A program made the translations under genes and the position numbers. DNA of 64,000 bases from an uncultured Bacilli bacterium (GTDB lineage: Bacteria; Bacillota_I; Bacilli_A; RFN20; CAG-449), in the NCBI GenBank assembly GCA_947632435.1, contig CANRPC010000005.1:1-64000 (forward strand), given 5' to 3'. Of the stretch, positions 7,231 to 45,917 are shown one piece after another. Positions within the stretch are counted from its first letter, which is position 1. Each line of letters opens with the position of its first letter. Below the pieces are notes generated by a model. The model saw only the letters and a program-made list of their open reading frames with translations. It had not been told where the DNA came from and made no database searches.

Positions 7231-8169
7231 CTAATTCATATTTTTATTTATATTTTTTTGAGGTAAAACCTCCATAGATAAGTTTTCGCTTAATTTTATT
7301 TGTAATTTATCTTTATCAAGTTGGATTTTTAATTCTTCAAAGGAAGAAAACTTTTTTTCTTCACGAAGATAATCAATAAATTCAATAGTTATAATCTGAT
7401 TATATAAATTCATATTTTGATCGATAATATGAACTTCAATTAGTTCATCTTTTAATGGTGATATTGTTGGATGAATACCAATATTTGTCATTGCTAAATA
7501 TTTTTTATTAGCAATATATGCATATGTTTTATAAACTCCTCGTCGAGGCAATTTATATTTTTCAAGGAGTTTAATATTTGCAGTAGGATAATTTATTAAA
7601 TGTCCATTTCCTTTACCTTCAATGACTTGTCCTTTAATTTTATAATTTCTTGAAAGGCAAAAATTTGCATCTTTAATATTGCCTGAATCTAACAATTCAT
7701 TTATTAAAGAAGTAGATATTTTTTGCTTTTTAAAATAAACAAAATCAAGTACTTTGGTATCAAAATATTTTTGATAAGTTTTTAAAGTAGAAATATCACC
7801 TGATGAATTGTATCCAAAATGATAATCTTTTCCAACAATAACTTCTTTGACATTTAGTTTTAATAATATTTTTTCAATAAAGTCTTCTTTTTTTAAATGT
7901 TTAATTTTTTCATTAAATTCCAAAACAAAAAGATAATTTAAAGAATAAGAATTTAAGATTTCTTTTTTATCATCTAATGAAGTTAATATTTTTTCTCTTT
8001 TAAATGGATTAGAAAAAGTTAATAAAGCACTTTTATAAGGACTTTGTTTGGCTTTTTTTATTAAAGCTTGATGTCCTAAATGTAAACCATCAAAAAAGCC
8101 TAAGCATAAACTTATTTCTTCTTTAAATAAATGTTTTAAATTGTTTTCATTTAAATAAATAACTTCCAT
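7231..8169 (-). CDS. ribF: Bifunctional riboflavin kinase / FAD synthetase
   Basis: RibF phosphorylates riboflavin to FMN and adenylylates FMN to FAD. The 312-residue product has the N-terminal nucleotidyltransferase motif LGFFDGLHLGHQALI (about residues 21-36, with the HxGH signature) and the C-terminal flavokinase motif NYPTANI near 190. This is the usual length. Its ATG lies one base past the truB stop, so the two are translationally coupled, and the AGGT site sits inside the end of truB. No terminator is obvious after the stop. Confidence 0.95.
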   Translation of the reverse strand: MEVIYLNENNLKHLFKEEISLCLGFFDGLHLGHQALIKKAKQSPYKSALLTFSNPFKREKILTSLDDKKEILNSYSLNYLFVLEFNEKIKHLKKEDFIEKILLKLNVKEVIVGKDYHFGYNSSGDISTLKTYQKYFDTKVLDFVYFKKQKISTSLINELLDSGNIKDANFCLSRNYKIKGQVIEGKGNGHLINYPTANIKLLEKYKLPRRGVYKTYAYIANKKYLAMTNIGIHPTISPLKDELIEVHIIDQNMNLYNQIITIEFIDYLREEKKFSSFEELKIQLDKDKLQIKLSENLSMEVLPQKNINKNMN

Positions 8170-11827: not shown

Positions 11828-12613
11828 CTATATGGAAACTTTTTCGCGTTTCATATCTTCAATTGTTAAATAATCTGCGATCATGGCTATAAATTCAGAA
11901 TTTGTTGGTTTATCTTTGTTGCGTGATATGCTGTAGCCAAAGATACGATTAATAGTATCGGTATCACCACGATTCCATGCAACCTCTATTGCATGTCTTA
12001 TAGCTCTTTCGACTCGAGAACCAGTAGTATGAAATTTAGCAGCAACTTCAGGATATAACATTTTTGTAATTGCTCCTAAATATTCATTTCCATTTTCACA
12101 GCACTGTTTAATAGCTTGTCTTAAATAAACATAGCCTTTAATATGTGCAGGAATACCAACTTCATGTAATAGCATAGTAATTTTTTTATCTAATGAATCT
12201 TCATTTAAAATTTGATTGCTTACTTTAACATCTGTTGGTGCTTTATCTAATTGATGCATATGATAAAGTAATGATGACATATTAAATGGCTTAAGAATAT
12301 AATCGTCAATATTAAATTCTTCGGCGTTTTTAAGCATCACTTGATTCATAAAAAATGGTATGGCAATAATATGATTTATTCTTACACTTGGGTGATTTTT
12401 TACTAAGCGTAAAGTTTCAAATCCATCATGAATAGGTAACATTAAATTAATTAATAAATAATCAATATATCCTAAATCGATAATTCTCTCTGCGGCTTTT
12501 TTACCATCTTCTTCAAAGCCTAGTACTTCATATTTGTCTTTTTTTGTTAATTCCTGTACAACTTCGTTAATTAATGCTTTGTCGTTATCGACTATAAATA
12601 CTGTTTTTCTCAT
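11828..12613 (-). CDS. spo0A: Spo0A-type response regulator with Asn at the phosphorylation site
   Basis: Spo0A is the master regulator of sporulation entry in Firmicutes. The 261-residue product has a receiver domain (1-120) and the Spo0A-specific DNA-binding domain, whose [18 protein letters not shown] recognition region and [15 protein letters not shown] tail are near-identical to Bacillus. In the receiver, [12 protein letters not shown] aligns with Bacillus VLDIIMP: residue 56, the phosphoacceptor Asp, is Asn, and the acidic pair DD is DN (residues 9-10). The Lys of LKPF is kept. Phosphorelay activation as known therefore seems impossible. AGGAGG precedes ATG 12613. Confidence 0.95.
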
Positions 12614-20179: not shown

Positions 20180-20310
20180 CTTTGTTCCTTCTTTTACATT
20201 GAAAGTTTAACATAGAACAAAAAGTTTATAAATAAAATCTTTTTATTATCTTAAAACTTAATTAAAAATATAAAAATATGATAAAATCATTAAAAAGAAA
20301 GGGTAATGGT

Positions 20311-21645
20311 ATGAAATTTCAAAAAACAGAATCAGTAGAATTAAAAAGAGTTTTAAATGATTCTTTTGAAAAAGAAGTCGTAGCATTTTTAAATACACTT
20401 GATGGAGTTATTTATATTGGTATTGATGAAAATGGAACTATAATTGGTGTTTCTAATATTGAAAAATTAATGAAAACTATCTTTGATACCATTACCGATA
20501 AAATATTGCCTAATGCTCAAGAATTAATTACACCAGTAGCAAAATATATAGATGGCAAAATGATTATTGAAGTAGATGTAAAAAAAGGTAATGCATTATA
20601 TTATATAAAAAAATATGGAAGAAGTTCTACAGGTTGTTTTATACGAATTGGAACAAGTACAAGAGGAATGTCTGAAGAACAAATTGATAAATTATTAATT
20701 AAATCTTTAGCTATTCATAAACCAAAAATTGTTGAAATAGAAAGTAGAAGACAAGATTTAACTTTTAATCAATTTAAATATCTTCTTAATTTTAGAGGTG
20801 TTCATGTAAATGATTTATCTTTTTATGAAAATTTTAACTTAAAAACTAAGAATAATTTATTTAATGAAATGGCTTTTCTTTTGTCGGATCAAAATGATGT
20901 TTCTATTAAAGTTGTTCGCTTTAGGGGGACAACAAAAGCAGAATTTATTTCAAGAAAGGAATTTGGTTTTTGCTGCCTTATTAAGGCAATGGTTGATGCT
21001 TTAGAATATTCGTTAAATGTTTTGAATACTATTCAAACAAATATTGTAGGGGCTTTAAGAGAAGATACACCTTATTTTGATGAGATCTCATTTAGAGAAG
21101 CATGGATAAATGCTATTTGTCACCATGATTGGACTCAACAAACCCCACCTGCGATTTATGGTTTTGATGATCGTGTGGAAATCATTTCTCATGGTAAATT
21201 AAAAGAAGATTTAACAGAAGATGAATTTTTTAGAGGAGTTAGTAAACCTGTAAATGAAGAACTAGCTAAAATATTAACTCAAATGCATTATATTGAACAA
21301 TCAGGAAGAGGAATTCCTACAATTGTTAAAAATTATGGTAAAGATGTATTTCATTTTGGCTCATCATTTATCGAATGCATTATTCCATATAATATTTTAG
21401 ATAAGAAAAAAAGCGATGAAATGAATGGAAATATAAAAGAAAATGCAAGTGTAAAATTAAATAAAATACAAAATGAAATATTAAATAACATTAAAAATAA
21501 TTATGAAATAACTTTAATTCAACTTGCTAATTTACTTAAAAAGAATGAATCCACTATTGCTAGAAATATAAAAATTTTAAAAAATCAAGGTTTTTTAATA
21601 AGACATGGATCAGATAAAAAAGGTTATTGGGAAGTAAAAGAATAA
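20311..21645 (+). CDS. AlbA/Schlafen-type putative DNA-binding regulator
   Basis: The 444-residue protein has an N-terminal AlbA_2/Schlafen-like domain (ESVELKRVLNDSFEKEVVAF and GVIYIGIDENGTIIGV, residues 5-45), a central region and an ATPase-like C-terminal part (AWINAICHHDWTQ, DDRVEIISHGKL), then a winged-helix end (IQLANLLKKNESTIARNIKI). Such proteins are usually annotated as ATP-binding transcriptional regulators; function is poorly known. The track start at 20278 lies inside a likely -10 (TATGATAAAAT), so ATG 20311, preceded by AAAGGG, is preferred. It is a single gene just upstream of the polysaccharide operon. Confidence 0.8.
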   Translation: MKFQKTESVELKRVLNDSFEKEVVAFLNTLDGVIYIGIDENGTIIGVSNIEKLMKTIFDTITDKILPNAQELITPVAKYIDGKMIIEVDVKKGNALYYIKKYGRSSTGCFIRIGTSTRGMSEEQIDKLLIKSLAIHKPKIVEIESRRQDLTFNQFKYLLNFRGVHVNDLSFYENFNLKTKNNLFNEMAFLLSDQNDVSIKVVRFRGTTKAEFISRKEFGFCCLIKAMVDALEYSLNVLNTIQTNIVGALREDTPYFDEISFREAWINAICHHDWTQQTPPAIYGFDDRVEIISHGKLKEDLTEDEFFRGVSKPVNEELAKILTQMHYIEQSGRGIPTIVKNYGKDVFHFGSSFIECIIPYNILDKKKSDEMNGNIKENASVKLNKIQNEILNNIKNNYEITLIQLANLLKKNESTIARNIKILKNQGFLIRHGSDKKGYWEVKE

Positions 21646-21793: not shown

Positions 21794-21810
21794 ATTTTTT
21801 GTCGAAAATT
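21794..21810 (+). promoter_or_regulatory. Candidate Spo0A box before the polysaccharide operon
   Basis: ATTTTTTGTCGAAAATT contains the exact Spo0A box core TGTCGAA (21800-21806). The same 17 bases occur once more at 44601. It lies about 75 bp upstream of the predicted start of the operon promoter. Confidence 0.6.
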
Positions 21811-21842: not shown

Positions 21843-21871
21843 TTGACTATGCGTTATGAATCATGTAAAAT
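21843..21871 (+). promoter_or_regulatory. Promoter of the polysaccharide operon
   Basis: TTGACT (21843-21848) and TAAAAT (21866-21871) are 17 bp apart, 24 bp before the first start codon. A second TATAAT at 21751 could be an upstream start. Confidence 0.7.
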
Positions 21872-21894: not shown

Positions 21895-22665
21895 ATGGAA
21901 AACAATGAATTCAACAATAATGTTTCTCAGCAAGAAGAAAAAGGTCTTTCATTAAAAGATTTATTCTATATTGTAAGAAAACACATTATAGCTATAATTA
22001 TTTTTATTGTTGCTTTTTCAGGCTTAGGTTTAGGATTAGCATTTTATAAAGATGATAAATCACCAAGTTATACTGTTGCTGCGACAGTTCTTATTTGTCC
22101 TAATTTTGAAGATGATGGTAAGAATTTAGCAGTTACAACTCAATATCAATTAGCAAATTATTTATTGCCATCATTTATTGATATTTTACAAGCAAATCGT
22201 GTTCTTGATCCTGTTGCTGAAGAATGCGGAGTAACAGTAAGCGAAATTGAATCTAGACTATCTGTTTCTAATACTGAAGATTCTTTAGTGGTTACTTTAA
22301 AATATTCTTACAGCACACCAGAAAAAGCTACTTTAATTTTAAATTCTGTAGTTAATTCATTAGTAAACTTTACTCAAAATGAAACAACAGATATTGGTAT
22401 GTTTAAAAATGGTGTTCAAAAATTAGATGAAGCAAATGTAAATAGAGCGGTTAAGGCTTCATCAAAAATGAAATATACTGTTATTTTCTTCGCTATTGGT
22501 TTTGTTGTTGCAGTTGTTTATGTAGCTCTTCGTGAATTATTTGATAATTCCTTTAAATCAAGTGAACAAATTGAAGATGAATTAGGATTAAAAGTTATTG
22601 CTAATATTCCTCTTTATGAATTTAAAATAGAAGATAACAATGATTCTAAAGGAGAAAACAAATAA
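21895..22665 (+). CDS. Wzz-type polysaccharide chain-length / kinase-activator protein
   Basis: A polysaccharide co-polymerase that in Gram-positives anchors and activates the partner tyrosine kinase and sets chain length. The 256 residues have a cytosolic start, membrane span 1 (IIAIIIFIVAFSGLGLGLAF, about 34-54), an external domain of about 135 residues, span 2 (VIFFAIGFVVAVVYVAL, near 195-215) and a cytosolic tail. The track uses a TTG at 21883, but ATG 21895 follows GGAGGT by 4 nt and is chosen. Its stop overlaps the kinase start by one base (TAATG). It is the first gene of the operon. Confidence 0.9.
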   Translation: MENNEFNNNVSQQEEKGLSLKDLFYIVRKHIIAIIIFIVAFSGLGLGLAFYKDDKSPSYTVAATVLICPNFEDDGKNLAVTTQYQLANYLLPSFIDILQANRVLDPVAEECGVTVSEIESRLSVSNTEDSLVVTLKYSYSTPEKATLILNSVVNSLVNFTQNETTDIGMFKNGVQKLDEANVNRAVKASSKMKYTVIFFAIGFVVAVVYVALRELFDNSFKSSEQIEDELGLKVIANIPLYEFKIEDNNDSKGENK

Positions 22666-23411
22666 TGAAAAAAATTGGTAAAAAAGATGTAGGATTATTA
22701 AATCCTGATTATAGAATTATTACAAAAATAGAACCTGATTCAATTTCTGCTGAAGCTTATAGAAGAATTAAAGTTTCCTTAGATTTCTCTTCTATTGATA
22801 AAAAAATAAAAGTTGTACAGGTATGTTCATCAATTAAAGGTGAAGGAAAAACAATTACTCTTTTAAATCTTGCAGCAACATATGCTGAAAATGGTAAAAA
22901 AGTTATTGTCGTAGACTTAGATTTAAGAAAACCAAAATGTCATCGTGCTTTCCAAATTGAAAATAAAGATGGCTTAAATGATGTTTTATTAGGTAGTGTT
23001 AAATTAGAAGATGCTATTAAACATAGTGATGAATTAGGTTTTGATCTTCTCAATAGTGGTAAAAGAACTTCATCAGTTTCAAGTATTATTGAATCACAAC
23101 ATTTAAAAGATATTATTTTAGAACTTAAAGAAAAATATGATATGGTACTTGTAGACTGCCCTCCAGTTCTTGCAGTTTCTGATCCAGTTGTTATTTCTTC
23201 TTTCTGTGACGGAGTATTATTCGTTGTTTCTCAATTAAGAACTGAAAGAAAAATGGCTAAAGAAGCAATTAAAGTATTAAAAAATGGTAATGCTAATATT
23301 CTTGGTGTTGTCTTTACAGAAATTCAAACTAAAGAAGGCTTACATAAAAACCCTTACTATAATTACAATTACTATTATTACGGAGATAATAAAAAAAGCA
23401 AAAACAAATAA
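22665..23411 (+). CDS. Bacterial tyrosine kinase (CapB/YwqD type)
   Basis: A BY-kinase that autophosphorylates C-terminal tyrosines to control polysaccharide export and polymerisation. The 248-residue product has Walker A SSIKGEGKTITLLNLA (near 55-70), Walker A' VVDLDLRKP (near 83), Walker B VLVDCPP (near 163) and a terminal tyrosine cluster, NPYYNYNYYYYG. It is coupled to the Wzz-type gene upstream, and a PHP-type phosphatase that would reverse it follows 11 bp later: a complete kinase, activator and phosphatase trio. Confidence 0.93.
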   Translation: MKKIGKKDVGLLNPDYRIITKIEPDSISAEAYRRIKVSLDFSSIDKKIKVVQVCSSIKGEGKTITLLNLAATYAENGKKVIVVDLDLRKPKCHRAFQIENKDGLNDVLLGSVKLEDAIKHSDELGFDLLNSGKRTSSVSSIIESQHLKDIILELKEKYDMVLVDCPPVLAVSDPVVISSFCDGVLFVVSQLRTERKMAKEAIKVLKNGNANILGVVFTEIQTKEGLHKNPYYNYNYYYYGDNKKSKNK

Positions 23412-23422
23412 GGTAAAGAAAA

Positions 23423-24082
23423 ATGGTAGATATTCACGCACATATTATTCCTTTTGTAGATGATGGTAGTAAATCCTTAGAGGATTCAGTGCGGCTTATT
23501 GAAGAAGAAATTAAACAGGGAGTTACAGAAATTATCTGTACTCCTCATTTTGATTTAAAAAGATATTTTACACCAGTTAATGTTATTGAAGAACAATTTA
23601 ATTTATTAAATGCTAAAGTTAAAGAATTAAATTTAAATGTTAAATTATTTTTAGGACAAGAAATTTGTTATACCTGGAAAGTTAATATTATTGAAAAATT
23701 ACAAAATCATGAATTATTAACTTTAAAAAATTCTAAGTATGTTTTAATTGAATTTGATTTTTATGAAGAACCAATAAATTTTTTGGAATTTATTTATAAT
23801 ATTCGTATAAAGGGTTTTCGCCCAATAATTGCACATGTTGAACGATATGAATGGTTAAATGAAAAGAAATTGCAAAAAATAATTATTGAAGGTGGATTAA
23901 TTCAAGTAAACGCGAATTCTTTAATTGATTGTAAAAGCAGAAAATTACAAAAAAGAGCTAGATCTTATGTAAAAAAAGGCTATGTAAATTACATAGCTAG
24001 TGATATTCATGTTGTAAGAAAAAATACCATGGCGGAAGCTTATAAAAAATTTGGCAAATATTTAAATATTTTTGAATTTTAA
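23423..24082 (+). CDS. PHP-type protein-tyrosine phosphatase (CpsB/YwqE)
   Basis: A manganese-dependent phosphatase of the PHP superfamily that dephosphorylates the neighbouring BY-kinase. The 219-residue product begins MVDIHAHIIPFVDDG (metal-binding HxH), then CTPHFD, GQEICYT, IIAHVERYEW (near 145) and ASDIHVV (near 190), the expected order of metal ligands. It is full length. A weak ribosome site (AAGGTAAAG) lies before the ATG. Confidence 0.92.
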   Translation: MVDIHAHIIPFVDDGSKSLEDSVRLIEEEIKQGVTEIICTPHFDLKRYFTPVNVIEEQFNLLNAKVKELNLNVKLFLGQEICYTWKVNIIEKLQNHELLTLKNSKYVLIEFDFYEEPINFLEFIYNIRIKGFRPIIAHVERYEWLNEKKLQKIIIEGGLIQVNANSLIDCKSRKLQKRARSYVKKGYVNYIASDIHVVRKNTMAEAYKKFGKYLNIFEF

Positions 24083-24091
24083 AAAAATTAT

Positions 24092-26002
24092 ATGATATTA
24101 TTATTAGCACCTTATTTTGAAAAAAAGCCTTGGGCAGGTAATAAATTAAAAAAATATTTTGATTGTCCTTCTTCTATTGGTGAAGCTTGGATTGTTTCAG
24201 GATATAAAAATAAATCATCTTTAATTATTAATGGACCATATAAAAATCAAACACTTAGAAAAGTTTTTCATGAGCATGAAGAACTTTTTACACCTTTAAA
24301 AGATAAAGAATTTCCCTTACTTATAAAATTAATTTCTTCAAGTGATAATCTTTCAGTTCAAGTACATCCTAATGATAATTATGCTTTAAAAAAACATAAT
24401 CAACTTGGTAAATTTGAATGTTGGTATATTTTAGATGATAATGCTAGTAAAGAAGTAATACTTGGCTTAAATTTAAAAAATGCTCGTGAACTGAAATCAG
24501 TTTTAAAAAATAATACACTTGAAGATTTTTTATTACATAAAAAAATAAAAGCTAATGATTTAGTCGTGGTAAAACAGGGTAAAGTACATGCTTTATTAAA
24601 AGATAGTTTTGTTTTAGAAATTCAAGAAGCTAGTAATATTACTTATCGCTTATATGATTATAATCGTGAACCTAAAAGAGAGTTACATATTGAAGATTCC
24701 TTAAATGTTATTGATTATAATAATGAACATAATTATATTTATGATTTTCATAAGGAAAATAGTTATGATAATAACCATTTTTCTATTAATAAAATGATTA
24801 TCAATAATAAATTAATTTATAAAAATAAAGAATTAGAAGTTTTTTATGTTAGTAAAGGGAAAGGGAAAGTTAATGAATTTAATATTGAAGAAGGCTCTTC
24901 TTTTATATTAACTTTTGAAAGTAAAGAGCAAATTATTTTTGAAGGTAATATGGAGCTTATTCAAATCATTCCTAAAGTTAAAGAAAAGGAGATGCTAAAG
25001 ATGCGAAAAGTAGCATTAATCACAGGAGTTATATCTCAAGATGGTTATTATTTAACAAAATTACTTTTAGAAAAAGGATATGAAGTTCATGGTTTAGTGC
25101 AAGCTGAAACTCAAATTCTTAATTCTATATTTACCAAATATTTAGATAATGAAAATTTTCTTTATCATGTATCTGATATGACGGATACTTCAAATATTAA
25201 TCGTATCTTAGAGAATGTTAAACCTGATGAAATTTATCATCTTGCTTGTCAATCACATATAAATTTATCTTTTGATTTACCAGAATATACAACACAAGTT
25301 AATTCACTTGGAACATTAAGGTTATTAGATGCGATAAAAAATAGCGAAATTAAAACTAGACTTTTTAATTTATCTTCGCCATATTTATTTTCGGGAGAAA
25401 TATATCCTCAAGATGAAAATACGCCTTTTGATGTTCAATCACCTTTTGCTGTTTCAAAATTATATGCTCATAAAATGGTGCAAGTTTATCGTAACAATTT
25501 TTCTTTATATGCGGTTAATGGTATATGTTACAATCATGAATCCTTTATTAGAAATTATACAACTTTTGTTGCTCCAAAAATTATATCCGCGGTTAAAAGA
25601 ATTAAACAAGGAGAAAATTTTGTTTTAGAGCTTGGTAATCTTGATGCGAGAAGAGAATGGGGACACGCTAAAGATTATGCTTATGCTATGTGGCTTATTT
25701 TACAACAAGATAAACCTCAAGATTACATTATTGCTACAGGAGTTAGTTATACTGTTAGAGAATTTGTCATATCGAGTTTTAAACATGTAGGTATTGATAT
25801 TGTTTTTGTAGGTAAAAATGAAGATGAAATTGGTATTGATAAAAATACTAAAAAAATATTAGTAAAAGTCAATCCTAAATTAATGCGCCCAAATGAAGCT
25901 AAAGTCTTGATGGGTAATGCTGATAAATTATATAAAGATACTAATTTTAGAGTTAAAAATGATTTAGATAGTTTAATTGAATCTATGCTTAAAGGAGAAT
26001 AA
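24092..26002 (+). CDS. Fusion: mannose-6-phosphate isomerase and GDP-mannose 4,6-dehydratase-like
   Basis: A 636-residue ORF joining two enzymes of GDP-sugar metabolism. Residues 1-300 are a type I phosphomannose isomerase with VQVHPNDN, KFECWYIL and QGKVHALL (zinc ligands). From about residue 304 it matches Gmd (ALITGVISQDGYYL, ARREWGHAKDYAYAMW). The linker KEKEMLKM is the translation of an AAAGGAG site (24985-24991) and two ATGs, so the stop of manA appears lost while the gmd start signal (ATG 25001) remains; separate Gmd may also be made. In the Gmd part catalytic Tyr is Phe (SPFAVSK) and the active-site Glu is replaced. Confidence 0.88.
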   Translation: MILLLAPYFEKKPWAGNKLKKYFDCPSSIGEAWIVSGYKNKSSLIINGPYKNQTLRKVFHEHEELFTPLKDKEFPLLIKLISSSDNLSVQVHPNDNYALKKHNQLGKFECWYILDDNASKEVILGLNLKNARELKSVLKNNTLEDFLLHKKIKANDLVVVKQGKVHALLKDSFVLEIQEASNITYRLYDYNREPKRELHIEDSLNVIDYNNEHNYIYDFHKENSYDNNHFSINKMIINNKLIYKNKELEVFYVSKGKGKVNEFNIEEGSSFILTFESKEQIIFEGNMELIQIIPKVKEKEMLKMRKVALITGVISQDGYYLTKLLLEKGYEVHGLVQAETQILNSIFTKYLDNENFLYHVSDMTDTSNINRILENVKPDEIYHLACQSHINLSFDLPEYTTQVNSLGTLRLLDAIKNSEIKTRLFNLSSPYLFSGEIYPQDENTPFDVQSPFAVSKLYAHKMVQVYRNNFSLYAVNGICYNHESFIRNYTTFVAPKIISAVKRIKQGENFVLELGNLDARREWGHAKDYAYAMWLILQQDKPQDYIIATGVSYTVREFVISSFKHVGIDIVFVGKNEDEIGIDKNTKKILVKVNPKLMRPNEAKVLMGNADKLYKDTNFRVKNDLDSLIESMLKGE

Positions 26003-26126
26003 TTTTTTTATTAAAAATTGTATTATTTTTGATGTAGATTGTATTTAATTTATTTCTAGTGCTAATATTATATTTAGTAATGCAAATGAAAAATTTTGTT
26101 ACTAGTTAAAGAAAAGAAAAAATAAG

Positions 26127-27257
26127 ATGAAAGTGTTACAAATTCCCAATTATTTGTATCCTCATATTGGAGGAATTGAACAAGTAGCTCGTGATATAAT
26201 TTCTGCTTTAAAAGAAGAAAAAAATATTGAACAAAGAGTTATTTGTTTTAATAATATTCATAAAACATCTTATGAAATAGTTGATGGAATACAAGTAGTG
26301 CGTATAAAAAGCATAGGTAAATTTGCTTCTCAAGAATTAGCTTTTTCTTATAAAAAAGAATTAAAAAAAATTTTAGATGAATTTCAGCCAGATTTAATAA
26401 TTTTTCATTATCCTAATCCTTTGGTGGGACATTTTTTAATAAAATTTTTTCAAAGGAAGTTTAAATTAATTGTCTATTATCATCTTGATATTATTAAACA
26501 AAAAATTTTAGGTAAATTTTTTTTATCACAAACTAAAAAAATATTAAATAGAGCGGATAGAATTGTTGCTACAAGTCCTAATTATGTACTTGGAAGTAAA
26601 ATGCTTTCATTATATAAAAATAAAATTACAGTTATTCCAAATTGTGTTAATGATGAAAGAATAAAACTAAATGATATAATAATTAATAAGAGTTTAGAAA
26701 TTAAAAATAAATATAAAAATAAAATCATAGTTTTTGCCTGTGGTAGACATGTTAAATATAAAGGATTAATTAATTTAATAAAAGCTAGTAAATTATTAAA
26801 TGATGATTTTGTAATTTTTATTTCTGGTAAAGGTGAATTAACTTCCTCATTAAAAAAAGAAGCTAAAAATGATTATAAAGTACATTTTTTAGGCGTATTA
26901 AGCGATGAAGAATTAAAAGCCTATTTAAATGCGTGTGATATCTTTGCTTTTCCTTCGATTAGTAAAAATGAAGCATTTGGTATTGCTTTAGCTGAAGCTA
27001 TGGCTTTTAAAAAGCCAAGTGTAACTTTTGAAATTAAAGGAAGCGGAGTTAATTATGTTTCTTTAAATAATGTGACAGGTATTGAAGTTAAAAATCAAGA
27101 TGTCAAAGCTTTTGCCAAGGCTTTAAAATATTTAAAAGATAATGAAGTTAAAAGAATTCAAATGGGAGAAAATGCTTATTTAAGAGAACAAGAAGAATTT
27201 ACTCAGACAAAATTTAAGAAAAATATTTTAACTTTAATCGGAGAATTTTATGGCTAA
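26127..27257 (+). CDS. GT4-family glycosyltransferase
   Basis: A cytosolic, membrane-peripheral glycosyltransferase adding a sugar to the lipid-linked repeat unit. The 376-residue product has the GT-B fold: N-terminal YPHIGGIEQVARDI, and a C-terminal donor-binding half with VFACGRHVKYKGL and the EAFGIALAEAMAF (E-x7-E) motif near residue 290. A 124-bp gap with no clear terminator separates it from the fusion gene, and it overlaps the next gene by 8 bp. Donor and acceptor sugars cannot be told. Confidence 0.88.
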   Translation: MKVLQIPNYLYPHIGGIEQVARDIISALKEEKNIEQRVICFNNIHKTSYEIVDGIQVVRIKSIGKFASQELAFSYKKELKKILDEFQPDLIIFHYPNPLVGHFLIKFFQRKFKLIVYYHLDIIKQKILGKFFLSQTKKILNRADRIVATSPNYVLGSKMLSLYKNKITVIPNCVNDERIKLNDIIINKSLEIKNKYKNKIIVFACGRHVKYKGLINLIKASKLLNDDFVIFISGKGELTSSLKKEAKNDYKVHFLGVLSDEELKAYLNACDIFAFPSISKNEAFGIALAEAMAFKKPSVTFEIKGSGVNYVSLNNVTGIEVKNQDVKAFAKALKYLKDNEVKRIQMGENAYLREQEEFTQTKFKKNILTLIGEFYG

Positions 27258-28275
27258 AGTAGTTATCGATTGCCGTTATCTCAAAATGTCTGGAATTGGG
27301 CGTTTTTTGGAGAATATTTTAGATAATCTTGATTTTTCAAAACATACTTATACATTAATAGGGAAAGAAGAATATCTAAAAAAATATCAAGGCGTAACTT
27401 ATTTAATAGATGATAGATCACCATTTTCTAAAAGTTCTTTATTTAAATCACCAGTTGATTTAATTAATCAAAATGATGTTTATTTTGTTCCTAATTTTAT
27501 TATTCCTTATGGTATTAAAATAAAAGTAATCGCAGTATTTCATGACATTTTATTTTTTGATCATAAAGAGGTTAATGCTTCATATAGTGATTATTTAATT
27601 AAAAAAGTTTTAATAAATCGTTGCATGAAAAAAGCATATAAAATCTTTACTATTTCTAATTTTTCATTAAAACGTATTGCTTTTTATTATCCTAAATATG
27701 CTTATAAATTAAGTTATAATTATCAAGGTGTAGCTCAAATTTTTAAAAATCAAAAACCATATTATCAAAAAGAAAATTATCTTGTTTATGTAGGAAATAT
27801 AAAAAAGCATAAAGGTCTAAAGATTTTATTACAAGCTTTTTTGGAAATTAGAAAAATTAGTTCTTTAAAATTATATATTATTGGTGATTATGAATCATTT
27901 AAAAATAAAGATCAAGAAATGGTAAATCTTTTAAATACTGAGGGTATTGTTTTTACTAATCGTATTGATGATGATAAATTAATTGAAATTGTTAAAAAGG
28001 CTAAATTTTTAATTCAACCATCATTTTATGAGGGATTTGGAATTCCCCCTTTAGAGGCTTTGTATTTACATACTAGACCAATTATTTCAAACATTGAGGT
28101 TTTTAAAGAAGTTTATAAAGATTTACCAGTAGTCTTTTTTAAAGTAGGAGATTATTTAGATTTAAAAGAAAAAATTTTAACAAGTGAAGTTAATTTTGAA
28201 TTTGATGAATTAAAAACAAATAAAATATTTTCTTATGAGAACTTTTCTTCTATAATTGAAAGAGAGTTTAAATAA
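27250..28275 (+). CDS. GT4-family glycosyltransferase
   Basis: A second GT-B glycosyltransferase of 341 residues. N-terminal DCRYLKMSGIGRFLENIL is typical of mannosyltransferase-like GT4 enzymes, and the donor site shows VYVGNIKKHKGLK and FYEGFGIPPLEAL (E-x7-E) near residue 265. GGAG sits inside the end of the previous gene, so translation is coupled. Mannose transfer is possible given the phosphomannose isomerase in the operon, but unproven. Confidence 0.87.
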   Translation: MAKVVIDCRYLKMSGIGRFLENILDNLDFSKHTYTLIGKEEYLKKYQGVTYLIDDRSPFSKSSLFKSPVDLINQNDVYFVPNFIIPYGIKIKVIAVFHDILFFDHKEVNASYSDYLIKKVLINRCMKKAYKIFTISNFSLKRIAFYYPKYAYKLSYNYQGVAQIFKNQKPYYQKENYLVYVGNIKKHKGLKILLQAFLEIRKISSLKLYIIGDYESFKNKDQEMVNLLNTEGIVFTNRIDDDKLIEIVKKAKFLIQPSFYEGFGIPPLEALYLHTRPIISNIEVFKEVYKDLPVVFFKVGDYLDLKEKILTSEVNFEFDELKTNKIFSYENFSSIIEREFK

Positions 28276-28279
28276 GTTT

Positions 28280-29482
28280 ATGAGTTTTTTGAAAAGACAT
28301 TACGAGTTAATAGATATTCTCTTCCTATTTGCAATTTTATTTATAGGAAGTGATATTTATGGAATAACATTCATGAATATGAATTTTCGCTTTGTGCAAC
28401 TTTATTATGTTTTTTTAGCACTTTTTGTAATTATTAAATATAAATATTGTCTTTATTTACCTAAATCATTAATAATTTTAAGTATTTTATTTTTTATATC
28501 GAGTTGTTTTGCCTTAAATTTTAATAAGAGTATTGTTTTTTTCTTTTGGCTTATTTATAACATAATTTTTGTATTTAGTTTGTTTTATACTTACATAAAA
28601 ATAAGAGGTAAAGATAATTTTATTGATATATTCCGTTATACATTTTTTATAATTTTTTTATTGACTTTAATATTATTCATTCTAGGTAATTTTTTCCATA
28701 TTGAATTTCCATTTTTTTCATATCAAAATCATAAAAATGTAGCAAGAGTTGCAATCTGGTTTTTTGAACCAAGTTATCTTGCTTCATTTATAACAATGTA
28801 TTTAGGATTTAGTTTTTATAACTTTTTTATAAATAAGAAAAAAGAATATTTATTTGATACAATTTTTGCTTTTTTCTCCATTGTTTTTACTACTTCTTCG
28901 ACAGGATTTATCGCGTGTGCTTTAGCAATTATTATTTGTTTTATTATTAAAACGATTTTAATAAAAAACGTAAAACAAAAAGTAACAACCGCGTTTATTG
29001 GAATTTTACTTTTAGCAGCTGCTTTTATTTGCGTCTTAGTCTTCTTTCCAAATGTTTATAATGCTTTTATTAAACGACTTTATGTGGATGGCTTATTTAA
29101 TTCTTCGGGAACAAGAATGAGAGAATATAGTAATACCTTTAGTTTATTTTTGAAATATCCTTTCTTTGGTGTTGGCCCTAATTGTTATGGTTTATATTAT
29201 GGAAATGAAAATTTACAACCCACAAATGTTACGTTAGAATTACTTGCTACAACAGGAATATTTACCACTTTAGTTTTTTATGTTTTCTTTTTAAATCCAA
29301 TAAAGATATATTTTTCAAAAAATAATTATTCTTTAGAAACTAAAGCTATGGTTTTTGCTTTAATTTTATTTTTAATCATCATTCAAGCTAATCAAAATTA
29401 TATGCGCCTTTATATGTGGATGCTTTTAGCAATTTGTTATGCTATGATAAATGAAGAAACTAAAAAAGAGGAGATATGTTGA
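28280..29482 (+). CDS. Wzy/O-antigen-ligase-type polysaccharide polymerase
   Basis: An integral membrane protein of 400 residues with about ten hydrophobic spans. It carries the polymerase/ligase-type extracytoplasmic loop FNSSGTRMREYSNTF followed by KYPFFGVGPNCYGLYYG near residues 275-305, as in Wzy_C proteins that join repeat units. The track start at 28256 is a TTG without a ribosome site overlapping the previous gene; ATG 28280 is preferred, though its own ribosome site is also weak. The stop is TGA. Polymerase is more likely than ligase in a Gram-positive. Confidence 0.85.
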   Translation: MSFLKRHYELIDILFLFAILFIGSDIYGITFMNMNFRFVQLYYVFLALFVIIKYKYCLYLPKSLIILSILFFISSCFALNFNKSIVFFFWLIYNIIFVFSLFYTYIKIRGKDNFIDIFRYTFFIIFLLTLILFILGNFFHIEFPFFSYQNHKNVARVAIWFFEPSYLASFITMYLGFSFYNFFINKKKEYLFDTIFAFFSIVFTTSSTGFIACALAIIICFIIKTILIKNVKQKVTTAFIGILLLAAAFICVLVFFPNVYNAFIKRLYVDGLFNSSGTRMREYSNTFSLFLKYPFFGVGPNCYGLYYGNENLQPTNVTLELLATTGIFTTLVFYVFFLNPIKIYFSKNNYSLETKAMVFALILFLIIIQANQNYMRLYMWMLLAICYAMINEETKKEEIC

Positions 29483-29483
29483 T

Positions 29484-30296
29484 ATGAAATCAAAAATCTT
29501 AATTGCTATATCTTTATTATTATTTGGATGTAGTTCTTCATCTTCATCTTCCATTATTAATTCAAGTGAAATAAGTTCTTTAAATGATACATCTTCAAAT
29601 AATGTTGTTAATACATATAGTAGCGATTCTTCTTTTAATGAATTAGATAGTAATTTAAATACAAATTCTTTTAAAGAATCTTCATCTGATGTTAAAAGTT
29701 CTTCTTTTAATAGTTCATCTTCAAATTTAACTTCCTCTTCATTTAAAGAAGAAAAACTTGATGAACATGATTTTCCTCTTCCTAATTATGAAGTTAATTT
29801 TTCAAGTGAAGAAACAATATTTGATTTTCAAGATACTTTTCCTCAAGAATTTAAATATATATATGGTTATAAAGTGTTAAATAACCCTAGTTTTTATGCT
29901 TCTGGAGGCTGGAAAATTTCTTATCCTAATTCAAAAGCAACTTTAGGTTTTCAAACACCTTTTTTCAATAGTGATTTAAAATTAGAAATACGTTTTTATC
30001 TTGGTGATATAAATAATTCTAATAATAAAGTAGATAAAGATAGTCCTTTTTTAACAATATATGGTTTTAATAAAGAAGGTAAATTAATTAGAACAGTAGA
30101 AATAGCAAATCAAACAAATTTCTATAATTATCAAAATAATGTTAATCCTATGAATTTTTATATAAATGGAGAAAATATTTCTTATTTAGAAGTAAGATTT
30201 ACATCTCCACCTTATAAATCTAGTCAATGTTATAATTTCGCAATTAAAAAAATTGGCTTTAAAATTTTCCCATATCCACTTAATGAAAGGAGTTAA
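29484..30296 (+). CDS. Lipoprotein in the polysaccharide operon, unknown function
   Basis: A 270-residue surface lipoprotein: signal peptide, lipobox LLFGC, then nearly 90 residues of Ser/Asn/Thr-rich spacer, then a folded, beta-rich domain of about 170 residues (FDFQDTFPQEFKYIYGYKVL, GGWKISYPNSKATLGFQTPF, LEVRFTSPPY) that looks like a carbohydrate-binding beta-sandwich. I do not recognise the family. The start at 29484 follows AAAGAGGAG and lies 1 bp past the polymerase stop; the track start at 29451 is inside that gene. Its position suggests a role in holding or shaping the polysaccharide. Confidence 0.8.
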   Translation: MKSKILIAISLLLFGCSSSSSSSIINSSEISSLNDTSSNNVVNTYSSDSSFNELDSNLNTNSFKESSSDVKSSSFNSSSSNLTSSSFKEEKLDEHDFPLPNYEVNFSSEETIFDFQDTFPQEFKYIYGYKVLNNPSFYASGGWKISYPNSKATLGFQTPFFNSDLKLEIRFYLGDINNSNNKVDKDSPFLTIYGFNKEGKLIRTVEIANQTNFYNYQNNVNPMNFYINGENISYLEVRFTSPPYKSSQCYNFAIKKIGFKIFPYPLNERS

Positions 30297-30299
30297 TTT

Positions 30300-31976
30300 A
30301 TGCTAGAGGATATTAATAAATGGTTAAATATGGATTTAAGTTATGATCCAGATTTAAAAGAAGAATTAAATAAAATTAAAGATGATAAAGAATTAATGAC
30401 TGATGCTTTTTATCAAGATTTAAGTTTTGGTACTGGTGGCTTAAGAGGCAAAATTGGTGTTGGTACAAATAGAATGAATGTTTATACTATTATTAAAGCT
30501 ACATTAGGCCTTGCTTCATTTTTAAAGAAAACTTATAAAGATAATATAAGTGTAGCAATTAGTTTTGATTCTAGAATTAAATCAAATTTGTTTGCTAAAA
30601 TTGCCGCCTCTACTTTGGCAAATGAAAATATTAAAGTTTATCTTTATAAAGAATTAATGCCTACACCATGTTTGTCATTTGCTGTGCGTTATTTGAAAAC
30701 TAAAGCAGGTATTATGGTAACGGCTTCTCATAATCCATCTATTTATAATGGTTATAAAGTTTATGATAATAATGGTTGTCAAATTACTGATAAATTCGCT
30801 AAATCTATTTATGAAGAAATTAAAAAAAGTGATCCATTTAATTATCATCTTGCTTCTTTTGAAACTTATTTTGAAAAAGGATTAATTAGTTATATTGAAG
30901 ATGAAGTTATTGATAATTATATAGAATGTGTCAAGAAAACTTGTTTAAATAAAGAAGAATTTAATAAAGATATTAATATAATTTATACCCCTTTAAATGG
31001 TACGGGATTAAAACCAGTATTAAGAGCTTTAAAAGAATTAAATTATAATAATGTTATCGTTGTTGAAGAACAAAGAAATCCTGATGGTAATTTCCCAACT
31101 TGTCCTTATCCAAATCCTGAAATTAAAGAAGCAATGGCACTTGGATTAGAATATGCCAAAAAATTTCATGCTGATTTATTAATTGCTACGGATCCTGATT
31201 GTGATCGAGCAGGAATTGGTATTAAAATAAATGAAAATGAATATCGATTATTATCAGGAAATGAAGTAGGAATTTTATTGCTTGATTATATCTTATCAAT
31301 GCGTAAAAAATATCATCAATTAAAAGATGGTTCGTTAATTGTAAAAAGTATTGTTACAACACCATTAGCTAATGAAATAGCTAAAGATTATGGTGTTAAA
31401 ACTATTGATGTCTTAACAGGATTTAAATATATTGGTGAACAAATTAATTTATTAGAGGAAAAACATCAAGAAGATTTATATGTTTTTGGCTTTGAAGAAA
31501 GTTATGGTTATCTTTCTTCAAGTTATGTAAGAGATAAAGACGCTGTGAATGCGACAAGTTTAATTGTAGAAATGTTCTGTTATTATAAGGATCAAAATAT
31601 TTCTTTAAATGATAAACTCAATCAGTTATATCAAAAATATAATTATTGCTTGAATACACTTCATTCATTTAATTTTGAAGGTCAATCAGGTTTACAAAAA
31701 ATGCAAAATATTATGCTTGATTTAAGATCTAAAGAAAAAGAATTTTGTGGTTTAAAAATCAATGAAGTTATTGATTATAAAAATGGAGTAAATAATTTAA
31801 AAGCAGATGTTTTGAAATTTGATTTAGCAAATAATATTCAAATTATTATGCGTCAAAGTGGTACAGAACCAAAGTTAAAAATGTATTTCTTTATTAAAGA
31901 AATTAATGAACTAAAAGCCAGAGAAAAAGAAGAAGAGTTATTAAAAAATATTAATTTATATTTAGCTAAGTTTTAA
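30300..31976 (+). CDS. Phosphoglucomutase / phosphomannomutase
   Basis: An alpha-D-phosphohexomutase interconverting hexose 6- and 1-phosphates. The 558-residue product has FGTGGLRGKIGVG, the phosphoserine loop MVTASHNPSIYNGYK (near 135), the metal loop TDPDCDRAG (near 300), the sugar loop FGFEESYGYL and the phosphate loop MRQSGTEPKLKMYF. The length matches PgcA-type enzymes. AAAGGAG precedes the ATG 3 bp after the lipoprotein. It may supply mannose-1-P or glucose-1-P to the polysaccharide and glycogen; specificity cannot be read. Confidence 0.92.
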   Translation: MLEDINKWLNMDLSYDPDLKEELNKIKDDKELMTDAFYQDLSFGTGGLRGKIGVGTNRMNVYTIIKATLGLASFLKKTYKDNISVAISFDSRIKSNLFAKIAASTLANENIKVYLYKELMPTPCLSFAVRYLKTKAGIMVTASHNPSIYNGYKVYDNNGCQITDKFAKSIYEEIKKSDPFNYHLASFETYFEKGLISYIEDEVIDNYIECVKKTCLNKEEFNKDINIIYTPLNGTGLKPVLRALKELNYNNVIVVEEQRNPDGNFPTCPYPNPEIKEAMALGLEYAKKFHADLLIATDPDCDRAGIGIKINENEYRLLSGNEVGILLLDYILSMRKKYHQLKDGSLIVKSIVTTPLANEIAKDYGVKTIDVLTGFKYIGEQINLLEEKHQEDLYVFGFEESYGYLSSSYVRDKDAVNATSLIVEMFCYYKDQNISLNDKLNQLYQKYNYCLNTLHSFNFEGQSGLQKMQNIMLDLRSKEKEFCGLKINEVIDYKNGVNNLKADVLKFDLANNIQIIMRQSGTEPKLKMYFFIKEINELKAREKEEELLKNINLYLAKF

Positions 31977-42908: not shown

Positions 42909-44009
42909 ATGATATTTCAATTAGACAAAAAAAACAATCTCGTTACTCTTGCAAATTCTTTATTAAAATATTTTACGAAAAAACAATTTAATGATACTAA
43001 TGAATACCTTGATAATATTTTAAAAAAGAAAAATTATCAAAAAATTGTTGTTATGCTTTTTGATGGCTTAGGAAGTTCAATTTTAGAAAAAAATTTAAAA
43101 GAAACTGATTTTCTTTTAAAAAATGTGAAATTTGAAATAACATCAATTTTTCCACCTACTACGGTCGCAGCGACAAATGCTTTTTTATCAGGAAAATATC
43201 CATCGCAAAATGGATATTTAGGTTGGCAACAATATTTTAAAAATGAAAATAAGATTGTGGAAATGTTTACTAACTATGATTTTGAAAATAAAGTAAAATT
43301 ATCTTATCCTTTACTTTCTGATATTTATTGTTCTTATGAATCAATATTTGATATTGTCAAAAAAGAAACTAATATTAATACTGCTTATTTATTTCCTAGT
43401 TGGATAAAAGATAAAGGCGCAAATGATATTGATGATTTTTTCTTGAAAGCAGATGAAATGCTTAAAGATAATCATAATCATTTTTATTATATGTATTGGC
43501 CTGAACCAGATTCTTTAATTCACCAATATGGAACTAATCATTATTTAGTAAAAGAAAATATAAGAATAATAAATAATAAAATAAAAAAATTAGCTTTAGA
43601 TAATCAAGATAATTTATTTATAGTGCTCTCAGATCATTCTTTAATTGATACAATGCCCTTAAATTTTTTTGCTCATTATGATTTAATTTCTTGTTTAAAA
43701 AGAATGCCTTCGTTAGATTCAAGAGCAATATTTTTTCATGTTAAAGAAGATCAAAAGAAGCGTTTTGAGATACTTTTTGATAAATATTATGGTAAATATT
43801 TCCTTCTAAAAAATAAAAATGACATTCTTAAAGAAGAAATTTTTGGCCCCAAACCTTATCATAAGGAGTTTGAAAATTTTTTGGGTGATTATTTAGCTTT
43901 TACAGATAGTAATTATTATCTTGATTATAAAAATAAAAATTATTTAGCCCAGCATTCAGGCTCATCAAAAGAAGAATTTTTAATAAGTGTCATAATATTA
44001 AATATTTAA
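42909..44009 (+). CDS. Alkaline-phosphatase-superfamily phosphodiesterase
   Basis: A 366-residue enzyme of the type I phosphodiesterase/nucleotide pyrophosphatase group. VVMLFDGLGSSIL (near 47-59) supplies the first metal Asp; FPPTTVAATNAFLSGKYPS (near 80) holds the nucleophile Thr; PEPDSLIHQYG (near 198) and FIVLSDHSLIDT (near 238) provide Asp-x3-His and Asp-His ligands; LAQHSGSSKEE supplies the last His. There is no signal peptide, so it is cytosolic. It lies 3 bp after dxs, and the two may be cotranscribed. Substrate unknown. Confidence 0.85.
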   Translation: MIFQLDKKNNLVTLANSLLKYFTKKQFNDTNEYLDNILKKKNYQKIVVMLFDGLGSSILEKNLKETDFLLKNVKFEITSIFPPTTVAATNAFLSGKYPSQNGYLGWQQYFKNENKIVEMFTNYDFENKVKLSYPLLSDIYCSYESIFDIVKKETNINTAYLFPSWIKDKGANDIDDFFLKADEMLKDNHNHFYYMYWPEPDSLIHQYGTNHYLVKENIRIINNKIKKLALDNQDNLFIVLSDHSLIDTMPLNFFAHYDLISCLKRMPSLDSRAIFFHVKEDQKKRFEILFDKYYGKYFLLKNKNDILKEEIFGPKPYHKEFENFLGDYLAFTDSNYYLDYKNKNYLAQHSGSSKEEFLISVIILNI

Positions 44010-44518
44010 GCGTAATCAGGTAATAACTCTTGAGCCTTTTTAACTATTTCTTTAAGTGCAATTCTGACTTTATAATCAGAAAGCTTATATTTCTTAGATA
44101 ATTTTTGTACTGACATCTCATAAACATAATAGTCAATTAAAATATTAAATTCAAACTTGTTAAGTACTAGTTTTAAGTCAAAAACTAAAGAATTATGATA
44201 TTCAACATATCCTACATCGGGCATTTCATTTTGATAGATATGGCGATTATATTTTTTTAAAAAATTTACACATTCATTTCTACCAATACGAAATAACCAT
44301 GTCTTAAAAGAACAAATATTAGGATCATATAAATCGATTTTATAATATGCCGCGCGAACAAATGCATCATTTGCTATCTCTTTGACTAAATCATATTGCA
44401 AATGGAAATTATCTATTAAAAACAAGCATAATTGATTTATATATTCTTTTCTTATTTTATCATAAGTTTCTTCATCATGTTTTTTTAATAAAATAAAATC
44501 TTTTTTTGTAAATTTCAT
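44006..44518 (-). CDS. Sigma-70-family RNA polymerase sigma factor
   Basis: A small alternative sigma factor of 170 residues with region 2 (VKEIANDAFVRAAYYKI, ICSFKTWLFRIGRNECVNFL, residues 46-87) and a region 4 HTH (MSVQKLSKKYKLSDYKVRIALKEIVKK, near 133-160). It has the two-domain plan of ECF factors, but no anti-sigma gene is beside it. A minus-strand promoter TTGTTC-16-TAAAAT lies at 44582-44555, and an exact Spo0A-box 17-mer sits 25 bp upstream of its -35. A SigH-like role downstream of Spo0A is an attractive but unproven reading. Confidence 0.85.
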   Translation of the reverse strand: MKFTKKDFILLKKHDEETYDKIRKEYINQLCLFLIDNFHLQYDLVKEIANDAFVRAAYYKIDLYDPNICSFKTWLFRIGRNECVNFLKKYNRHIYQNEMPDVGYVEYHNSLVFDLKLVLNKFEFNILIDYYVYEMSVQKLSKKYKLSDYKVRIALKEIVKKAQELLPDYA

Positions 44519-44600: not shown

Positions 44601-44617
44601 ATTTTTTGTCGAAAATT
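44601..44617 (+). promoter_or_regulatory. Candidate Spo0A box between the sigma factor and murC
   Basis: ATTTTTTGTCGAAAATT, identical over 17 bases to the site at 21794, with core TGTCGAA at 44607-44613. It lies in the 202-bp divergent region between the sigma-factor gene and murC. Confidence 0.6.
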
Positions 44618-44720
44618 TAAAAAAATTATTGACAAATAAAAAAATTTGAAGCATTTTAGAAAGCAAAATTGTTAAAAATATATTTTTTTAAACTTGCATA
44701 TAATGTTATGGTGATTAGAT

Positions 44721-45917
44721 ATGAAATATTATTTTGTGGGTATTAAAGGCTCAGGTATGTCTTCACTTGCAAAAATTTTATTATCTTTAAATGAAGAAGT
44801 AAGAGGTTGTGATTATCTAGAAACTTTTTATACCGAAAATGGGCTAGAAAATATTAAAATAGATAATTTAAATAATTATTTATTATCTAAAGAATATATT
44901 TATATAATAGGGAATGCTTTTGTAAATCATGAAATAGTAACTGCAATAAAAAATAATTATCAATATTATACATATCCTGAATTTATCAAAAATTATTTTC
45001 AAAAATATATTTTTATTGCTATATCTGGAAGTCATGGTAAAACCCAAACCACTAAATTGCTTGCCCATATTCTAGATCATAGTATTGGGCTAATAGGTGA
45101 TGGTAGTTTTAAAGTTGATGATAATCCTAAATATTTTTTATTAGAGGCTTGTGAATATAAAAATACATTTTTAAATTATAATCCTGATATATCTTTAATA
45201 TTGAATGTTGATTATGACCATGTTGATTTTTTTAAAACAGAAGAAGATTATCAATTGGCTTTTATAAATTTTATGAAAAAAAGTAAGATATGTATTATTA
45301 ATAGCACAGATTGTAAAATTAATTATCAAGATGCTATAACTTATTCTAAAAAAGATTTTAAATATCAAAACGGAATTATTAATATTAATAATCAAGATTT
45401 TAAACTTCCATTTAAGGGTGAAAAATTTGCTGAAAATTTTATGGGTATTTATAAAATTTTAAAGCTGTTAAATGTTGATGATAACTTAATAAAAGAAAAA
45501 TTAAAAACTTATAAAGGGGCTAAAAGAAGGTATGAAATAAAAATAGAAGATAGCCAAATAATAATATCAGATTATGCTCATCATCCTAATGAAATTAAAA
45601 CAATGTATGAAGCATTAAAAGAAGAATATAAAGATAAAAAATTAGTGGTAATTTTTGAACCACATACAATTACAAGACTTGAAAAATTTATAAAAGAATA
45701 TAAAAATGTATTAAGTTTATTTGATGAAACATATTTATATAAATTATTTACTAGTGTAAGAGAAATTTATAATGTAGATAAAGTAAATTATCTATATGAT
45801 TACTTAACTTATAAAGTTTATAATACTTCAATTAAAAATAAATTAAAAAAAGAAAAAAATATTGTTATAGCGTTTTTAGGCGCGGGAAATATTGATAAAG
45901 AATTTCAAAATTATTAA
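44721..45917 (+). CDS. murC: UDP-N-acetylmuramate--L-alanine ligase
   Basis: MurC adds L-Ala to UDP-MurNAc, the first peptide step of peptidoglycan precursors. The 398-residue product starts with FVGIKGSGMSSLAKILL (UDP-binding loop), has the ATP loop AISGSHGKTQTTKLL (near 103-117), LNVDYDHVDFF, GAKRRYEI and DYAHHPNEIKTMYEAL. It is somewhat shorter than typical MurC (about 430-460), with compact central loops. GGTGATT precedes the ATG and a TATAAT lies at 44699. It is a single gene in front of the U32 gene. Confidence 0.9.
   Translation: MKYYFVGIKGSGMSSLAKILLSLNEEVRGCDYLETFYTENGLENIKIDNLNNYLLSKEYIYIIGNAFVNHEIVTAIKNNYQYYTYPEFIKNYFQKYIFIAISGSHGKTQTTKLLAHILDHSIGLIGDGSFKVDDNPKYFLLEACEYKNTFLNYNPDISLILNVDYDHVDFFKTEEDYQLAFINFMKKSKICIINSTDCKINYQDAITYSKKDFKYQNGIININNQDFKLPFKGEKFAENFMGIYKILKLLNVDDNLIKEKLKTYKGAKRRYEIKIEDSQIIISDYAHHPNEIKTMYEALKEEYKDKKLVVIFEPHTITRLEKFIKEYKNVLSLFDETYLYKLFTSVREIYNVDKVNYLYDYLTYKVYNTSIKNKLKKEKNIVIAFLGAGNIDKEFQNY

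Follow-up and report, generated by a model that had tools for sequence, protein, structure and literature searches.

The closest described counterpart of the element studied here is the 0A box of B. subtilis and C. difficile, with the experimentally defined core TGTCGAA and the contacted bases G2, C4, and G5 (PMC3485338). In C. difficile, the DNA-binding domain of Spo0A binds perfect TGTCGAA boxes that precede start codons by 67-82 bp, among them those in front of lplA and ssuA, genes without a known role in sporulation (PMC3485338). The link between Spo0A and exopolysaccharide synthesis described in B. subtilis is indirect, as Spo0A reaches the eps operon via SinI/SinR and AbrB (PMC4238804).

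The DNA analysed here (the window, 64,000 nucleotides in length) belongs to the genome of an uncultured gut-type member of the Bacilli (1.68 Mb, 26% GC) and carries two exact copies of the 17-mer ATTTTTTGTCGAAAATT in the same orientation (Table 1). A first-pass annotation had read this 17-mer as a Spo0A box in front of a polysaccharide operon. Its description of the sites was confirmed from the sequence, as both copies are identical and contain the exact core, including the contacted G2, C4, and G5. The coordinates of the neighbouring genes likewise confirmed that both are intergenic: copy 1 lies between a gene at 20278-21645(+) and the wzz-like gene, and copy 2 lies between two divergent genes. 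The same annotation had credited the genome with a Spo0A whose DNA-binding helix is intact, and this also holds, since the predicted protein scores above the TIGR02875 cut-off and a stretch of 15 residues of its recognition helix is identical to PDB 1lq1.

Like the 0A box of B. subtilis and C. difficile, the motif of this family combines the core TGTCGAA with A/T flanks, lies within ~100 bp of start codons, and is found at the spoIIA, spoIIE, and spoIIGA promoters, often as a 10-bp tandem. Unlike it, the two focal copies are single and lie 95 and 114 bp before start codons, and their neighbours are not classical targets but a polysaccharide operon and a Mur ligase/ECF-type sigma pair, neither conserved as a target in the family. 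A functional copy 1 would, as does the SinI/SinR relay of B. subtilis, join Spo0A to an operon that starts with Wzz-type and Wze-type genes. Unlike in that relay, the box stands before the operon itself, and SinI was undetected in all 41 genomes searched (the control genome of B. subtilis was matched), an absence that is not certain given a model of only 28 positions. The focal sites resemble the lplA and ssuA boxes of C. difficile in having a perfect core before genes other than sporulation genes, with copy 1 somewhat farther out (95 bp); they differ in the genes concerned and in being predicted from sequence.

Table 1. Positions of the predicted regulator, the two 17-mer copies, and the neighbouring genes and promoter-like elements in the window
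Feature	Position	Strand	Description	Basis
spo0A	11828..12613	-	Proposed regulator	TIGR02875, 220 bits (cut-off 200)
17-mer copy 1	21794..21810	+	Core TGTCGAA at 21800-21806	Exact sequence
Putative sigmaA-type promoter	21843..21871	+	TTGACT-17-TAAAAT	Promoter scan, 10/12 matches
wzz-like chain-length determinant gene	21895..22665	+	First operon gene; ATG 21895 after GGAGG; mechanical ORF start TTG 21883	PF02706
Rest of polysaccharide operon	22665..31976	+		Pfam
Sigma-70 region 2 protein gene, ECF size	44006..44518	-	Divergent possible target of box 2	Pfam PF04542
17-mer copy 2	44601..44617	+	Core TGTCGAA at 44607-44613; divergent intergenic region	Exact sequence
TTGACA	44629..44634	+	22 bp downstream of box 2 start; no convincing second hexamer 16-18 bp further on	Sequence
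TATAAT in TTGCATATAATG	44699..44704	+	Occurs as TTGCATATAGT in the orthologue of G002	Sequence comparison
Mur ligase (MurC-like) gene	44721..45917	+	Possible target of box 2	Pfam PF08245, PF02875, PF01225

Spo0A is present in 21 of the 41 genomes, and the family of the focal genome has members with and without it. We sampled 152 kb of intergenic DNA from six Spo0A+ and 49 kb from three Spo0A- members of this family. In the Spo0A+ members, TGTCGAA was seen 44 times, with 10.1 occurrences expected from an order-2 Markov background (15.2 with order 3), and the longer form TTTGTCGAA 23 times against 2.0 expected; in the Spo0A- members, TGTCGAA was not enriched (3 seen, 2.3 expected). The first-pass annotation had named a lack of intergenic enrichment as grounds for giving up its reading, and the Spo0A-linked enrichment found here removes that objection. 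The difference between the two groups (Fisher p = 0.0013; 0.0007 without the sites that had guided the choice of contigs) is to be read knowing that contigs were partly picked because earlier matches lay on them, and that the three Spo0A- genomes represent one genus, two of them having a site in common. Among the 2240 7-mers with three G or C, TGTCGAA ranks fourth in Spo0A+ intergenic DNA, behind Shine-Dalgarno words only, and the flanks of the focal sites match the preference of the family for T at positions -1 to -3.

At other scales no such signal was detected. Within the window, the core occurs 4 times against 3.7 expected from shuffling, and sequences close to the 17-mer show no enrichment either. 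Over the 41 whole genomes, the 12-mer TTTTGTCGAAAA was counted 42 times against 72 for its reversed control, a count that neither exceeds the control nor follows the presence of Spo0A; the likely reasons are that copies in coding DNA outweigh the others and that the 12-mer asks for more than real boxes carry.

The placement of the motif at sporulation genes points in the same direction as its intergenic enrichment. TTTTGTCGAA stands ~60 bp before spoIIAA in G001, G002, G015, G029, and G034, other boxes are present at the spoIIA promoters of G004, G007, G010, and G012, and TTCGACA is found 40-50 bp before spoIIE in G001, G008, G026, G029, G034, and G036. The focal genome has TTTGTCGAA at the promoter of spoIIGA, which is followed by two sigma-factor genes, probably sigE and sigG judging from their position and sequence. 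Two boxes precede its spoIIIAH homologue, one of them at -89, the same position as in G008, and its spoIIA and spoIIE promoters show degenerate forms only (TTTTGTCTAAA; GGTCGAG). The strongest direct-repeat offset around intergenic boxes is +10 bp. Tandem matches at 10 bp number 159 in the Spo0A+ family members (61 in the control) and 21 in the Spo0A- members (23 in the control), with p = 0.002.

Taken together, the Spo0A-linked intergenic enrichment, the placement at spoII promoters, and the 10-bp tandem arrays support the identity of the motif well, and we are highly confident that it is the Spo0A box of the family of the focal genome. The first-pass reading thus stands as far as motif identity is concerned, while its other part, direct control of polysaccharide synthesis, found no backing in conservation. 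It is well supported that the element belongs to a known regulatory type, here with new candidate targets. Because the operator is recognisable from sequence in an uncultured family whose members include both Spo0A+ and Spo0A- genomes, a Spo0A regulon can be predicted without cultured strains, and the two focal sites are testable candidates for envelope and capsule genes being tied directly to the decision to sporulate.

The core of copy 1 starts 95 bp before the ATG of wzz and 43 bp upstream of the TTGACT hexamer, farther upstream than the boxes at spoIIA and spoIIE. After wzz, the operon is predicted by Pfam to encode a Wze-type AAA ATPase, CpsB/CapC, a phosphomannose isomerase-epimerase fusion, two glycosyltransferases, a Wzy/O-antigen ligase, one protein without a Pfam match, and a phosphomannomutase. 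Sites matching as well as TTGACT-17-TAAAAT were found 5 times against 3.4 +/- 2.0 in shuffles, so the promoter call is weak taken alone. The box is placed ahead of the -35 and neither overlaps nor follows the promoter, which is the usual activation geometry of bacterial regulators, and it is from geometry alone that we infer activation as the sign of regulation. In the mechanism that we propose, phosphorylated Spo0A would accumulate as starvation or sporulation sets in, bind copy 1, which sits ~75 bp ahead of the probable start of transcription, and activate the putative sigmaA promoter of the wzz-wze-cpsB operon, so that capsule or exopolysaccharide synthesis would be tied to sporulation without a SinI/SinR relay. 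Of this scheme, the identity of the motif, the encoded Spo0A with its recognition helix, the placement of the box, and the lack of a SinI match are findings of the analysis; binding at copy 1, activation rather than repression, and the physiological role are inferred. Direct control of the polysaccharide operon by Spo0A via copy 1 is plausible, and direct control over capsule or exopolysaccharide synthesis appears on balance probable; we lean, with modest confidence, towards the reading that copy 1 works as an activating Spo0A site. The wider proposal, that Spo0A would control these genes directly in place of SinI/SinR and that the second identical box would couple the Mur ligase and the ECF-type sigma factor to it, is tentative and rather doubtful.

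The most serious alternative is that the motif is indeed the Spo0A box of the family, but that copy 1, and perhaps copy 2, arose by chance in A/T-rich intergenic DNA and is non-functional, with no effect on the operon. Such an origin is consistent with the lack of conservation at orthologous genes: neither focal site is kept, as no box was found in the 400 bp before wzz of G001, G004, G007, and G010, the four Spo0A+ family members with a wzz-like operon, or in the upstream region of the Mur-ligase orthologue of the congener G002 (66% identical). The first-pass annotation had itself named conservation before this operon as a test, and the outcome goes against its reading. The test is weak, because the wzz operons of the family are only distant orthologues (26-29% identity). 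A Wzz protein search of the species genomes found no relative. Repeated 17-mers are also common in the window (47, in DNA of 26% GC), and we rejected the repeat as evidence in itself. Both focal sites are without a clear second box, matching at best 3 of 7 positions at +/-10 bp, which again suits a chance origin; a second box at this spacing is common in Spo0A boxes but not obligatory.

The counts in the focal genome bear on the same alternative. TTTGTCGAA occurs 19 times in the genome, with 13 copies within called ORFs and 1 more, near a contig end, that reads as coding; the 5 that are intergenic compare with 1.2-2.6 expected, the upper figure coming from the order-3 background and leaving room for chance. 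Against chance, TTTTGTCGAAAA is present only twice in 1,681,788 bases (reversed control, 3), precisely at the focal sites, both of them intergenic and upstream of genes, with an intergenic expectation of only 0.13-0.29 genome-wide. The probability of at least two intergenic copies is 0.007-0.034, calculated post hoc; gene calls were mechanical, and the genome-wide intergenic figures were scaled up from 464 kb of the focal genome. In addition, about 20 of the 23 intergenic TTTGTCGAA copies in the family sample are excess over background. We regard a non-functional copy 1 as unlikely, though it is the alternative that survives best.

Spo0A represses some of its direct targets, such as abrB (PMC4238804), and one box cannot reveal the sign of regulation, both of which favour a copy 1 that is genuine but represses or fine-tunes the operon, polysaccharide synthesis being shut off as sporulation begins. 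We consider this improbable. The box stands upstream of the -35, as is usual for activation. TGTCGAA is not known to us as a recognition sequence of any sporulation sigma factor, which counts against a motif bound by some other regulator, or serving as a sporulation sigma-factor promoter element, that merely accompanies Spo0A. Copies before the housekeeping genes topA, clpC, and groES, and one copy shared by two Spo0A- genomes before the same membrane-protein gene, speak for such a motif, but the lack of enrichment in Spo0A- members, full identity with the core defined by experiment for Spo0A (PMC3485338), the presence at classical Spo0A targets, and the 10-bp tandem spacing make it very improbable.

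With copy 1 retained as a putative activating site, boxes near polysaccharide genes of other genomes can be set beside it. In the polysaccharide region of the congener G001, a sugar-transferase gene that directly follows cpsB has one box 61 bp upstream (G001:C10:26739, L199), and another lies 224 bp before a flippase gene (G001:C10:1816, L198); as support for control these are suggestive only, because several boxes fell in those 40 kb. In G024, which belongs to another family, TTCGACA stands 180 bp ahead of one of the weak Wzz matches of that genome.

Copy 2 lies 88 bp from the start of the sigma gene and ~108-114 bp from the Mur-ligase gene, and is a possible candidate site for either. For the Mur-ligase gene, the TATAAT at its 5' side, preserved in the G002 orthologue, is the more likely -10. 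In G002, a different short gene stands upstream of the Mur ligase, where the sigma gene would be. A search of relatives found no match to the sigma gene in two congeners; a 42%-identical paralogue is present in the same genome (G000:C4:96094-96579). The spacing between box and TTGAC, 43 bp at copy 1 and 22 bp at copy 2 and so two helical turns apart, was set aside, as the promoter at copy 2 is uncertain.

Several further boxes were observed outside the window. In the topA promoters of two genera (L027, G000:C25:4342-4350; L035, G007:C1:28671-28682), a Spo0A-type box stands exactly 27 bp upstream of TTGACA in similar surroundings, inverted in one of the two (TTCGACA vs TGTCGAA). In both congeners, clpC-like genes have boxes ~90-100 bp upstream (L195, G002:C4:32265-32281; L040, G001:C11:11089), G002 having two perfect boxes in 10-bp tandem. 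In the Spo0A- genomes G003 and G006 (L033/L034), TTTTGTCGAAAA follows a terminator-like hairpin ~95 bp before a membrane-protein gene, and may be a remnant or an unrelated signal. Three copies of TTTGTCGAA fall within ~55 bp in G029 (L046, C2, around 54746), near a gene whose product has no known role. Finally, tandem near-boxes at G002:C28:8515-8606 lie close to spo0A itself (C-terminal domain at 7690-8004, minus strand), possibly reflecting autoregulation.
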